Below are positions 24,180 to 36,891 of a stretch of DNA of 64,000 nt, piece by piece. Below the pieces are notes generated by a model. That model had not been told where the DNA came from. It worked only from the letters and a program-made list of their open reading frames with translations, and searched no databases. Numbering within the stretch: the stretch's first letter is position 1; each line of letters begins with the position of its first letter. The position numbers and the translations under genes are program-made. The stretch is from Halobacteriovoraceae bacterium (GTDB lineage Bacteria; Bdellovibrionota; Bacteriovoracia; Bacteriovoracales; Bacteriovoracaceae). The stretch is taken from NCBI GenBank assembly GCA_002707495.1, contig PAMZ01000006.1:62001-126000 (forward strand). Reading direction: 5' to 3'.

Positions 24180-24746
24180 TTAGCTTAAATGTTTTGAAAC
24201 TAGTTTGGTCATTTCAAACATTGATACTGTTTTCTTTCCACCAAAAACTGGCTTAAGTTTAGCATCAGCATTGATATTTCTTTTGTTTTTAGGGTCTTGA
24301 AGATTATTTTTCTTAATATATTCCCAAAGCTTCTTAACAACTTGTGTTCTCGGTAGTGGCTTTGATCCAACTACTTCAGCCAACTCTGCAGAAGGAGTTA
24401 AAGGCTTCATAAAAGCTGCATTAGGCTTTCTTTTCGTTTTTTTCTTAGTCGCTTTCTTAGCTACTTTTTTCGTTGCCTTCTTTTTAGCAACTTTTTTCTT
24501 AGCTACTTTTTTCGTTGCCTTCTTCTTAGCAACTTTTTTCTTTGTCGCCTTCTTCTTTGCAGCCTTTTTCTTAGTTGCTTTTTTCTTAGCTACTTTTTTA
24601 GTTGCCTTCTTTTTAGCAACTTTTTTCTTAGTTGCTTTTTTCTTAGCTACTTTTTTCGTTGCCTTCTTCTTAGCTACTTTTTTAGTTGCCTTCTTCTTAG
24701 CTACCTTCTTAGTTGCTTTCTTTTTTGTTGCTTTTTTCTTTGCCAT
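24180..24746 (-). CDS. Histone-H1-like protein with C-terminal SWIB/MDM2 domain
   Basis: This is a 188-residue protein with a GGGAGGA ribosome-binding site. Residues 1-108 are almost entirely lysine, alanine, threonine and valine in a repeating KKATKK / KKVAKK pattern, as in bacterial and eukaryotic linker-histone tails that bind DNA by charge. Residues 112-188 match the SWIB fold (FMKPLTPSAELAEVVGSKPL, TQVVKKLWEYIKKNNLQDP, MFEMTKLVSKHL). Such fusions occur in Chlamydia and some other bacteria and are thought to act on chromosome structure. A similar lysine-rich tail ends the topoisomerase B subunit at 34771-36891. Confidence 0.85.
   Translation of the reverse strand: MAKKKATKKKATKKVAKKKATKKVAKKKATKKVAKKKATKKKVAKKKATKKVAKKKATKKKAAKKKATKKKVAKKKATKKVAKKKVAKKKATKKVAKKATKKKTKRKPNAAFMKPLTPSAELAEVVGSKPLPRTQVVKKLWEYIKKNNLQDPKNKRNINADAKLKPVFGGKKTVSMFEMTKLVSKHLS
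24440..24743 (-). repeat. Degenerate coding repeats of the KKATKK/KKVAKK tail
   Basis: About 300 bases made of near-repeats of AAAAAAGTAGCTAAGAAG-like units on the minus strand, encoding the H1-like tail. Different codons for the same residues indicate selection on the protein rather than recent slippage alone. The tract length may vary between strains. Confidence 0.7.
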
Positions 24747-33335: not shown

Positions 33336-34760
33336 TTATTTTCTTCGCTTTCGAGAAGTTTTATTGAGCTTTCTATATACCTGTCTTTTATGGTCGCCTT
33401 TAGCTTTCATTATTTTATCTATTTGCTCTGAAACCTCATTCAATTCTTTGATCAATTCTTTTTTTACCATTGCATGGCTTTTAACGATCTTTTCATACTC
33501 TTTGATTTTCTTTTTATCTTCAGTAATCAATAGTTGTCGCTTATTTACCTCTTCTTTCGTCATGCGATAGATGGCCATGTCCGCGAGATATTCAGAAAAA
33601 ATGAATTTTTTTGAACCAAGATATTCTACAAAAGCCTTTCTATTAGCCTTCTTCTCAGCTTGTGCATAATGGCGCTCTTTAATAAAACGTATAATCTCAT
33701 TATTTTTATTCAGGCGTTCTTTCGCGTCCGCTATCAAGAGTTCGTATCTTCTTTTCACAACCTCTAGTCTTTTGGCCGTAAAAATCTCGATAATATCTTC
33801 TGGCCCATCTAGGACTTTAACCCCCCTCTCGGATATCAAAGTATAGTTAGGACTAAGAGAAGTGGAGACTCCCATCGTTTTTTCCACTTCTTCTAAGGTT
33901 GGTTTTTGACCACGTTTAAAGACAAGTTCAATCATTATTTCGTTATCAACAGAGGAGTCTATATAGTCTTTTATAAAATCATTATCTATGTGCTTATTTA
34001 AATGTTTATAAATCTTTTTAGCGTCATATCCTCTTGGTAATTCAACGATATAAATTTTCTCATCTATTTCTTTAAAGCCCATTCGAAAATGAACTTTACC
34101 TGACTTCTCGAACTGTGGTTTTTCAGAGTAGTTTCGAACCCAAGGCTTAATTTTTTTAGCTTTCCCAGTTTCAATACATTGAATCATTGAAGAGACTATA
34201 TCTTTATGACTAAAACTTGGAATGACTGAGGAAAAACCAGTCCCTATCCCCTCGGCACCGTTTAATAACATAATAGGTAATTTCGGTAGAAGACCCAATG
34301 GCTCCATAACCTTCTCATCATAGTTTGGAACCATTTCTACTTGATTCATATCATCAAAGAGTAAAAGCTTAGCAACCTCTCCCAGTTTACACTCAATATA
34401 CCTACCAGCAGCTGCTTGAGTTTCCATTCTCTCTCCAAAATATCCTTTCTTATCAATCAAAGGGTAATTATTAGAGAAGGTGAAATCTTGTGCAAGATTT
34501 ACAATAGAACTTTCAATCGATGCCGGACCATGGGGATGTAAAGTGAGCACCAGACCTGTCAGACCTGTGACTTTCATAAGCCCTTTGTTTTGATTTCTCC
34601 AGAGAGTAAATAAAATCCTTCTTTGAGATGGCTTAAGTCCATCTTGCAGATAAGGAATGGCCCGATCCATTAGAGTATAAATTTGGTAATTGCGATACTC
34701 ATCTTTAACTATTTCTGTGAGGGATATTTCTTCAAGATCGTGTAGGTATAAATCTTCCAT
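33336..34760 (-). CDS. Type IIA topoisomerase A subunit lacking the C-terminal domain
   Basis: This is a 474-residue protein, against about 750-880 for GyrA/ParC. The catalytic tyrosine is Y121, preceded by R120 (TQAAAGRYIECKL). The breakage-reunion features LKPSQRRILFTL, HPHGPASIESSIVNLAQDF and PNYDEKVMEPLGLLPKLPIMLLNGAEGIGTGFSS are present. The segment after the coiled coil ends in a basic tail (HKRQVYRKLNKTSRKRRK) with no beta-pinwheel DNA-wrapping domain. The sequence has features reminiscent of eukaryotic and T4-type enzymes. It lies ten bases downstream of its B-subunit gene. It is likely a decatenating or relaxing enzyme rather than a supercoiling gyrase, by inference from the missing wrapping domain. 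Confidence 0.85.
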   Translation of the reverse strand: MEDLYLHDLEEISLTEIVKDEYRNYQIYTLMDRAIPYLQDGLKPSQRRILFTLWRNQNKGLMKVTGLTGLVLTLHPHGPASIESSIVNLAQDFTFSNNYPLIDKKGYFGERMETQAAAGRYIECKLGEVAKLLLFDDMNQVEMVPNYDEKVMEPLGLLPKLPIMLLNGAEGIGTGFSSVIPSFSHKDIVSSMIQCIETGKAKKIKPWVRNYSEKPQFEKSGKVHFRMGFKEIDEKIYIVELPRGYDAKKIYKHLNKHIDNDFIKDYIDSSVDNEIMIELVFKRGQKPTLEEVEKTMGVSTSLSPNYTLISERGVKVLDGPEDIIEIFTAKRLEVVKRRYELLIADAKERLNKNNEIIRFIKERHYAQAEKKANRKAFVEYLGSKKFIFSEYLADMAIYRMTKEEVNKRQLLITEDKKKIKEYEKIVKSHAMVKKELIKELNEVSEQIDKIMKAKGDHKRQVYRKLNKTSRKRRK

Positions 34761-34770
34761 ATTTTATCTC

Positions 34771-36891
34771 TTATTTCTTTTTCGCTGCTTTTGACGTCTT
34801 CTTTTTTGAAGGCTTTTTCGCCACTTTTTTAGTCACTTTCTTTTTAGTTACTTTCTTTTTAGCTGCCTTCTTTTTTGCAATTTTCTTCTTAGCAACTTTT
34901 TTCGAAGCAACCTTCTTTTTACTGCCTTTAAGCTTATCCCCAGTATAATCCTCGTGATCGATCAAAAGATCCTTCCTGAGCTGAGTATCCTTTCCAAAGC
35001 AGGTATGCATTGTAAGCTTAGCGTCTTTTTCATCTTCAATAACAATTTTTGTATAGGAGTCTCTCCCCAAAACATATTTAAAAGCTTCGGGACTCATCTC
35101 CCCTAGACCTTTGTTTCGCTGGATTTCCTTTATTTTAACTCCCGGCTTTTTCTTAATTTGCTCCAACTCACTTTCACTCTCCGCATAAATAGGGTCCTTA
35201 TCTGTGATCACCTCAAACAAGGGAGCTTTAGCAATTTGAATGGCTCCATAATCAAATAATTCAGGCCAAAAGGTATAAAAGAAATTAGTTAGCAAAGTAT
35301 TTATATGACCACCATCTACATCTGAATCAGCTAAAAATACGACTCTGGGATAGCGAAGATCACTTGGGTCTTCCACTTTTTGGCCTATAACCAGACCAAC
35401 TGAGGCCATAATATCTGAGAATTCCTGATTGTTGAGAACATCTTTTATAGAAGCCTGAGTTACATTCATAGGCTTACCACGCAGAGCGATCCCACCTTGA
35501 AATAGTTTATCCCTTGCTGAGCGAAGGCCCCCAATTGCAGAATCCCCTTCGCAAATGAATAGAGTACAATTCTCACGGTTTCTTCTCTCGTTAGCATCTA
35601 GAAGCTTTTCTACTCTCTGCTTTTTTTGTTTTCGCCCTTTTTTACTAGCATCTTTGAGAGCTGCAAATTTTTGCCGACTTTTCGCTCGGTCAATAATGAG
35701 CTCTAAATAATCCTTATTATTACGCATAAACTTAGTCATATACTTCGTCATATGCTTTTCAATAGCTTTTTCAAGGTGATTATCTCGAACTAATTTTCTT
35801 TTTGTCTGAGATTCAAATCTAGGGTTAGGCATGATGATCCCAATGACAAAGGTCATACCACCTAAAATATCATTATCAGTCAGGGTCACTTTCGCTTTTT
35901 TGGCTTCACGCTCTAATTTATCTTTAAGAATATTGATAAAATACCGCTTAACTCTGTCGTGGTGATATCCTCCATCATAAGTAGGTGTCGAGTTCACAAA
36001 AGAAATAAATTTCTCTCTTTCTTCAGAGGTTTTATCCAGAACCACCGCCACACTCATATCAATCAGAGCTTTATATTTTTTCTTTTTAATATTAACGCCC
36101 TCATAGACGAATTTATCCTCCACCAGAAGCTGCGCATTTTTCTCATCTATTCTTTGCGCTAATTCAAAGAGTCCTTTTTTATAGTGAAAGGTCTCTCCGT
36201 TAAAAACGAATTTTAGACCCGGATTATTGTAAGCAAGATCAATGATTCTCTTTCGAAGCAACTCTGAATCGATCTTATTATTTTTATAAACTTCTTTTGC
36301 CAAAACCACTTCTATCTTAACTCCAGAGTTACCTTTAAAAGGTTTCGGTCGAGATTTTGACGTCTTCAAGGCCCCATCTGTAAATTTAAAAGTTTGTTCT
36401 TTTTTAGAGTTGTAATGCTTTACTGTAACATTGAATTCATCACTGGTAAGACAAGTCGCAGCTGCTCCTAACCCATTTTGACCTAGAGTTCTATGTAAAT
36501 AACCTTTGGAGTCAACTTCTTGATCTTTGAATTTCGAGCCCGTCCTAAACTCTGTATAGACCATTGGTACTTTATTTAATGGAAATCCGATCCCATTATC
36601 TGAAATCGTCACTCGGGTTCCATCTTCAGACAAAGTGGTTTTCACCTCTGTAACATGTCCTCGGTAGAACTCATCGATACAATTATCTAATATTTCTTCA
36701 ATCGCTTTTGATTTAGCTTGGTGAAATTTTACTGTTTTAAATTCTAGAGAATCTTTTGTATAAACATAGGTGTCTAGCTCTTCAATATCATTGGAGCCGA
36801 AAACCAAAGTGACTCGGTTTCGACAGTGCCAGCGTTGATCCTTAGCTTCAATCTCAGCCTCTTTTACCTTAGCGCCTGTTCTTTTCGCCAT
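34771..36891 (-). CDS. Type IIA topoisomerase B subunit with histone-H1-like tail
   Basis: This is a 706-residue protein. The GHKL ATPase domain has E65/N70 in AIEEILDNCIDEF, D98 in ISDNGIGFP and the lid LGQNGLGAAATCL. The transducer covers about residues 240-400. The TOPRIM metal site has E448 in FICEGDSAIGG and D522-x-D524-x-D526 in FLADSDVDGGHI. From about residue 655 the protein ends in a lysine-rich KKVAKKKIAKKK-type tail similar to that of the SWIB protein at 24180-24746. Such a tail is not part of normal GyrB or ParE and should raise DNA affinity. It pairs with the A-subunit gene 10 bases downstream. Confidence 0.88.
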   Translation of the reverse strand: MAKRTGAKVKEAEIEAKDQRWHCRNRVTLVFGSNDIEELDTYVYTKDSLEFKTVKFHQAKSKAIEEILDNCIDEFYRGHVTEVKTTLSEDGTRVTISDNGIGFPLNKVPMVYTEFRTGSKFKDQEVDSKGYLHRTLGQNGLGAAATCLTSDEFNVTVKHYNSKKEQTFKFTDGALKTSKSRPKPFKGNSGVKIEVVLAKEVYKNNKIDSELLRKRIIDLAYNNPGLKFVFNGETFHYKKGLFELAQRIDEKNAQLLVEDKFVYEGVNIKKKKYKALIDMSVAVVLDKTSEEREKFISFVNSTPTYDGGYHHDRVKRYFINILKDKLEREAKKAKVTLTDNDILGGMTFVIGIIMPNPRFESQTKRKLVRDNHLEKAIEKHMTKYMTKFMRNNKDYLELIIDRAKSRQKFAALKDASKKGRKQKKQRVEKLLDANERRNRENCTLFICEGDSAIGGLRSARDKLFQGGIALRGKPMNVTQASIKDVLNNQEFSDIMASVGLVIGQKVEDPSDLRYPRVVFLADSDVDGGHINTLLTNFFYTFWPELFDYGAIQIAKAPLFEVITDKDPIYAESESELEQIKKKPGVKIKEIQRNKGLGEMSPEAFKYVLGRDSYTKIVIEDEKDAKLTMHTCFGKDTQLRKDLLIDHEDYTGDKLKGSKKKVASKKVAKKKIAKKKAAKKKVTKKKVTKKVAKKPSKKKTSKAAKKK

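Follow-up and report, generated by a model that had tools for sequence, protein, structure and literature searches.

A phage/eukaryote-type topoisomerase II with a histone-H1-like lysine-rich tail as the probable decatenase of Bacteriovoracia

The Gene Pair and Its Products

The window considered here is a stretch of 64,000 nucleotides from the genome of a Halobacteriovoraceae bacterium, in which two adjacent reverse-strand genes encode the subunits of a type IIA topoisomerase. The B (ATPase/TOPRIM) subunit, assigned to the phage/eukaryote type from its ORF, Pfam domains, motifs and trees, is encoded at 34771..36891 (-), which are exactly the boundaries of an open reading frame of 706 aa with an ATG start codon. 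Pfam matches above the cut-off were obtained for HATPase_c (residues 63-166), DNA_gyraseB (255-411) and Toprim (443-544), together with a weak match to gyraseB_C (589-641). All catalytic motifs are intact (N-box EEILDNCIDE, G1 DNGIGFP, G3 GQNGLGA, FESQTKRKL, EGDSA and DSDVDG), and these domains and motifs confirm the complete GHKL and TOPRIM domains described in an earlier note on this DNA. The G3 box is of the NG type (GQNGLGA) and not LHG, a trait that is weakly diagnostic, as it is also found in Bacteroidetes ParE and some plasmid proteins.

Two further measures of kinship were dropped. The AlphaFold2 model of the B subunit is middling (pLDDT 72, pTM 0.57) and, when compared with PDB by Foldseek, matches GyrB, ParE and T6 topoisomerase II alike, so that fold does not discriminate among them; in PDB searches by sequence and by fold, gyrase stands approximately level with or above T6 and eukaryotic topoisomerase II. 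The 478-bit match to PHROG 543, the family of the T4 large subunit, was set aside as evidence of phage kinship, since GyrB reaches about 500 bits with the same profile.

The gene of the A (cleavage) subunit (33336..34760, -) starts 10 bp downstream of the B stop codon. Its product of 474 aa is recognized by conserved motifs, with the catalytic Tyr121 in GRYIECKL, and has no C-terminal beta-propeller. PF00521 (residues 33-440) was the only Pfam family matched; PF03989, which E. coli ParC does show, was absent, and no DNA-wrapping C-terminal domain (CTD) of the GyrA type, a criterion for DNA gyrase, was found with Pfam. The observation in the earlier note that the A subunit is missing its wrapping domain was thus correct. 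The top PDB sequence match of this subunit is eukaryotic topoisomerase 2, and the motif GIGTG[FY]SSxIP is common to both. The protein ends in a short basic, K/R-rich tail (KGDHKRQVYRKLNKTSRKRRK; 33336..33401, -). Every relative scored has a positive net charge over its last 30 residues (mean +8.8, range +1 to +17), against a mean of +0.2 in 39 phage A subunits, for which the last residue of the profile match was taken as the C-terminus, as it almost always is.

The genome that contains the window (3.36 Mb, 89% complete) carries a separate GyrB/GyrA pair on contig 22, and no further type IIA gene was found in it. At the positions equivalent to GyrA Ser83/Asp87, the A subunit described here has A80/S84 (HPHGPASIES). 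From these residues the phage/eukaryote-type enzyme is predicted to be quinolone-insensitive, and gyrase should then be the sole quinolone target in these cells.

Position Among Type IIA Topoisomerases

In B-subunit trees, this protein and its relatives are united in a single clade (100/100), which falls on the phage and eukaryotic topoisomerase II side and apart from GyrB/ParE. The same split is recovered at 100/100 in the A tree and in the joint B+A tree; in the latter the family branches as the sister group (96/95) of every phage and eukaryotic sequence included, the eukaryotes contributing a single sequence for each subunit (human for the B part and Plasmodium for the A part, from PDB alignments). 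The split still stands at 100/99 in the widest tree, to which Bacteroidetes ParE, archaeal, cyanobacterial and plasmid sequences were added and from which the Mycoplasma B subunit, not usable when translated with table 11, was left out, in a sampling that holds no Chlamydia topoisomerase IV, lacks most phyla and draws its cellular extras mostly from plasmid-collection records. In AU tests, grouping the family with ParE was rejected (p=0.00025), as was grouping it with Bacteroidetes ParE (p=0.0017) and, on the joint data, with the gyrase/ParE set. Scores against the NCBIfam gyrB, parE, gyrA and parC models are far below every cut-off (224/723 and 232/900 bits for B, 135/629 and 117/813 bits for A).

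The enzyme resembles bacterial topoisomerase IV (ParE/ParC) in being a second type IIA enzyme beside gyrase and a presumed decatenase. The trees and AU tests nevertheless overturn the identification as a ParE-like protein that the earlier note implied, and a topoisomerase IV identity was rejected on the AU tests, the NCBIfam scores and the absence of the ParC beta-propeller CTD. Judged by its sequence relationships, the enzyme is assigned to the supergroup of phage and eukaryotic topoisomerase II, of the T4 and jumbo-phage type, and not to ParE/ParC.

The branch of Bacteriovoracia is deep and, at ~1.05 changes per site, also long; in the trees, which are unrooted, the family joins between the cellular half and the viral half, closer to the latter. 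It could be argued that a fast-evolving topoisomerase IV has lost its CTD and been grouped with phages and eukaryotes by long-branch attraction. The point at which the B branch joins, between the two halves, would fit this origin, as would a chromosomal gene that is universal in the class and holds the same functional slot as topoisomerase IV; gyrases are also the top PDB matches by bit score. We consider it improbable, however, as the AU tests reject the ParE, Bacteroidetes ParE and gyrase groupings, the A and B subunits independently give the same placement, branch lengths within the family are modest, and the NG-type G3 box and eukaryote-like A-subunit motifs point away from ParE/ParC.

The enzymes of the gp39/gp52 type from phages T4 and T6 and from jumbo phages (Asteriusvirus) are likewise encoded by adjacent genes, with B subunits of ~610-660 aa and A subunits of about 430-490 aa; in the Asteriusvirus jumbo phage SD-2_S15, the B-A order is the same and the sizes are 654/470 aa. 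They share with the enzyme described here an A subunit without CTD, the NG-type G3 box and the same side of the tree. Identity is ~28-33%, and the phage proteins end at an RKxW/RKxL core without basic tails. Unlike the T4 and jumbo-phage enzymes, the present one is encoded on the chromosome throughout a bacterial class. The ancestor of Bacteriovoracia may have taken the enzyme from a jumbo phage, displacing topoisomerase VI or IV in a non-orthologous manner, which would be a more specific version of the explanation that we prefer below. Gene order and sizes agree with such a transfer, the enzyme is absent from the rest of the phylum, the first B tree joins the family to jumbo phages at 81/55, and the AU test allows a clade of this kind (p=0.38). 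In the better-sampled trees, however, the family is sister to all phage and eukaryotic sequences, the best trees placing it outside all phage sequences, and no closer phage donor was found in 2.9 million viral contigs (best ~32-33% identity); viral scans that used only the A subunit or a single phage protein as the query gave nothing new. Transfer from a jumbo phage is in our estimation a serious candidate whose chance falls somewhat short of even.

Among the viral sequences, one contig (L227:2956-6183) encodes a single-chain B-A fusion of ~1075 aa on the phage/eukaryote side, an arrangement like that of eukaryotic topoisomerase II, and the topoisomerases of viral contigs L180, L181 and L232 are sister to the eukaryotic topoisomerase II row (100/97).

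Distribution in Bdellovibrionota

The phylum was surveyed in 104 Bdellovibrionota genomes, which were at least 90% complete apart from the window's own (89%). Two PF00204 genes, namely GyrB and the phage/eukaryote-type B subunit, are present in each of the 26 Bacteriovoracia. The other 78 Bdellovibrionota have GyrB only, with the exception of G148, which carries a canonical ParE, and two genomes without any match. Topoisomerase VI-B is distributed in a complementary manner, being present in 73 of the 78 (absent in G131, G139, G165, G146 and G168) and in none of the 26 Bacteriovoracia, where the best matches are cross-matches to the GHKL domain of at most ~37 bits. The five genomes named have no ParE, topoisomerase VI-B or phage-type enzyme and may rely on gyrase alone. 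The sole canonical ParE outside Bacteriovoracia (G148:C83, L143) comes from a genome with 5% contamination and may lie on a contaminant contig.

Topoisomerase VI is thought to stand in for topoisomerase IV in bacteria that lack the latter, as an alternative decatenase (PMC11302465). It is a type IIB enzyme, with a cleavage subunit unrelated to that of the type IIA enzyme described here. Another review lists Bdellovibrio as having topoisomerase VI and also names Bd0005 as Top IV (PMC11318664), a naming that our gene count does not bear out for relatives of Bdellovibrio. Given the complementary distribution and the presence of a second type IIA enzyme in 26 of 26 genomes, we infer that the phage/eukaryote-type enzyme probably fills the decatenase slot in Bacteriovoracia, as topoisomerase VI does elsewhere in the phylum.

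In a survey of 2024, topoisomerase II is found only in eukaryotes and topoisomerase IV only in bacteria (PMC11302465). Our literature search found no description of this enzyme, and the sole detailed paper on a Bacteriovorax topoisomerase that it returned concerns gyrA (PMC12642874).

The Lysine-Rich Tail of the B Subunit

Residues 658-706 of the B subunit (34771..34920, -) form a histone-H1-like C-terminal tail, KKKVASKKVAKKKIAKKKAAKKKVTKKKVTKKVAKKPSKKKTSKAAKKK, in which 28 of 49 residues are lysine, against 12% in the core, a difference far beyond chance. The tail of about 50 residues with lysine-rich repeats reported in the earlier note is therefore real. Its degenerate KKxA repeats are as in H1-like tails of the TopA type, and it is predicted to be disordered, with AlphaFold2 pLDDT below 50 for residues 635-706. 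The lysine codons are mixed (16 AAA and 12 AAG), alanine is encoded by three codons, and Tandem Repeats Finder (TRF) detected only a weak 15-bp array with 75% matches in the tail DNA. The mixed codons and weak array argue for maintenance of the repeat at the level of the protein and against a recent origin by DNA slippage.

The earlier note had raised a frameshift in relatives as a possible artefact behind the tail. This was not what we found, since a long basic tail continues in frame in 28 of the 56 complete homologues and is followed by an intact A gene, and the relatives' B reading frames run normally on into that gene. An origin of the tail by slippage or frameshift was rejected on the in-frame relatives, the mixed codons and the weak tandem array.

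A scan of 84,980 prokaryote genomes yielded 63 loci, all from genomes labelled as Bacteriovoracaceae, Halobacteriovoraceae or Bdellovibrionota or from MAGs with vague names. Across the family, the B tail ranges from 3 to 132 aa; it is at least 40 aa long with at least 30% lysine in 24 of 57 members and shorter than 10 aa in nine. The core tree of 56 rows contains 28 long-tail and 28 short-tail sequences, and the tail state changes on it at least nine times, with at least five changes forced by well-supported branches. The lineage of Bacteriovoracia has repeatedly gained and lost lysine tails, and the basic composition of the tails is retained through complete turnover of their sequence.

More than 50 phage B subunits have no tail, the proteins stopping at the catalytic core. 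An exception is the B subunit of Burkholderia phage BcepSauron, which also ends in ...AKKVAVKKEAATAKPAAKKVASKKAK. The earlier statement that ordinary GyrB and ParE lack such a tail stands for all GyrB and ParE included here, and extends to the tail-less phage homologues, but not to this phage protein. In the first B tree, the BcepSauron subunit groups with GyrB/ParE on a very long branch, and its AKKVA-type tail is for this reason probably of independent origin. Residues 582-699 of the same protein (L151:3498-6089) give a weak, intein-like match that stays below the cut-off.

Histone-H1-Like Proteins of the Same Genome

The window also contains a histone-H1-like KKxAKK-repeat protein with a SWIB/MDM2 domain (24180..24746, -; ORF, PF02201, E=2.5e-33), which belongs to the context and not to the enzyme. 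It has the motif of the B tail, and its match to chlamydial HC2 is sub-threshold. Besides the B subunit, the genome encodes five or more proteins with KKxAKK arrays, this one included, and the recurring module is therefore probably a nucleoid-binding element of the organism. Lysine-repeat proteins were also noted at L071 (C9 ~98598), L247 (C5 38341), L261/L262 (C6 173911-174225) and L265 (C7 245462-245923); among them are a pure H1-like protein of 116 aa, one of 169 aa with a globular N-part, one of 290 aa with an acidic C-terminus and one of 379 aa with a cysteine-containing C-part. The genome's own TopA is tail-less, and the tail was accordingly rejected as a general trait of its topoisomerases.

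With lengths from 3 to 132 aa, many losses, and an AT-rich genome that favors AAA/AAG runs, the B tail might be regarded as a functionless, neutral low-complexity extension that arose by codon slippage. This seems to us unlikely: the basic character survives full turnover of the sequence with mixed synonymous codons, A subunits always have a basic end, and the same module is carried by several other H1-like proteins of the genome, though not by TopA.

A Possible Role in DNA Tethering

In the type IIA architecture, the C-terminus of the B subunit lies beside the DNA gate, so that a flexible polycation at this position can hold flanking DNA. The closest parallel to the tail is provided by the H1-like lysine repeats of TopA from Streptomyces and other actinobacteria, which are also a C-terminal extension of a topoisomerase. 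According to a 2019 review, Streptomyces coelicolor TopA without these repeats still binds DNA but dissociates more readily, and its processivity is lost with velocity unchanged; the repeats stabilize the enzyme-DNA complex and raise processivity (PMC7398561). Ku and HupB carry similar lysine repeats, which they need in order to interact with DNA (PMC7398561). TopA differs in being a type IA enzyme of GC-rich bacteria, whereas the tail described here belongs to the B subunit of a type IIA enzyme from an AT-rich genome. By analogy with the TopA repeats, the B tail is probably a nonspecific DNA tether, and tethering of the enzyme to DNA, which the earlier note had proposed, would be its most likely role. 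The note's other suggestion, that the tail may compete with H1-like proteins, concerns proteins that the genome does encode.

The same note also proposed that the tail replaces the missing wrapping domain. This idea is not supported, given the phage relatives that have neither CTD nor tail and the nine of 57 family members with tails of less than 10 aa. Such members and the tail-less phages indicate that the enzyme works without the tail, which makes it accessory, and with so many members lacking it, its function cannot be essential.

Eukaryotic topoisomerase II, of the same supergroup, has a disordered C-terminal extension, which in human topoisomerase II alpha is a chromatin tether that pulls down histone H3 (PMC5713405). 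The eukaryotic enzyme is a single chain whose A-equivalent part ends in the tether; in the enzyme described here, it is the B subunit that bears the long tail, which places it at the B/A junction. The human example is in favor of another proposal, in which the tail would link the enzyme to a partner, to H1-like/SWIB nucleoid proteins or to RNA, and not directly to DNA, and H1-like proteins of the genome do have the same repeat. Two polycationic chains should repel each other, however, and the lysine repeats of Ku and HupB act through DNA (PMC7398561); we consider a partner tether improbable.

The explanation that we favor, with a probability of roughly 70%, is that a phage/eukaryote-type topoisomerase II serves as a cellular decatenase and that its disordered lysine tail, an optional feature, tethers it to DNA nonspecifically. 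The gene pair would encode a heterotetramer of the phage/eukaryotic supergroup, which in Bacteriovoracia is the second type IIA topoisomerase and has taken the slot held by topoisomerase VI in the rest of the phylum. To a core without tail or CTD, disordered lysine-rich extensions would have been added repeatedly, a short one always on A and a long H1-like KKxAKK extension often on B. Leaving the TOPRIM end near the DNA gate, the B tail would most likely bind DNA nonspecifically and so give the enzyme a lower off-rate and a higher processivity on a chromosome crowded with H1-like proteins. It would act as an optional enhancer and not as a substitute for the gyrase wrapping domain.

Conclusions

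A wider form of this explanation is more tentative, and we hold it to be rather unlikely as a whole. It states that the Bacteriovoracia enzyme is a deep cellular lineage of a type IIA family known otherwise from phages and eukaryotes, being either the relic of a cellular source of viral and eukaryotic topoisomerase II or a class-wide viral replacement, and that the lysine tails on both subunits are an adaptation to a bacterial chromosome covered by H1-like proteins, convergent with the human topoisomerase II chromatin tether.

With lysine tails gained and lost many times over, the family offers a natural experiment on DNA tethering. If the placement of the enzyme holds, a whole, mostly predatory, bacterial class decatenates its chromosomes by means of an enzyme from the phage/eukaryote branch, and the debate over the viral origin of eukaryotic topoisomerase II would gain a new branch. 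The cultivable Bacteriovorax and Halobacteriovorax would in that case be models for a viral-type topoisomerase working in cells.
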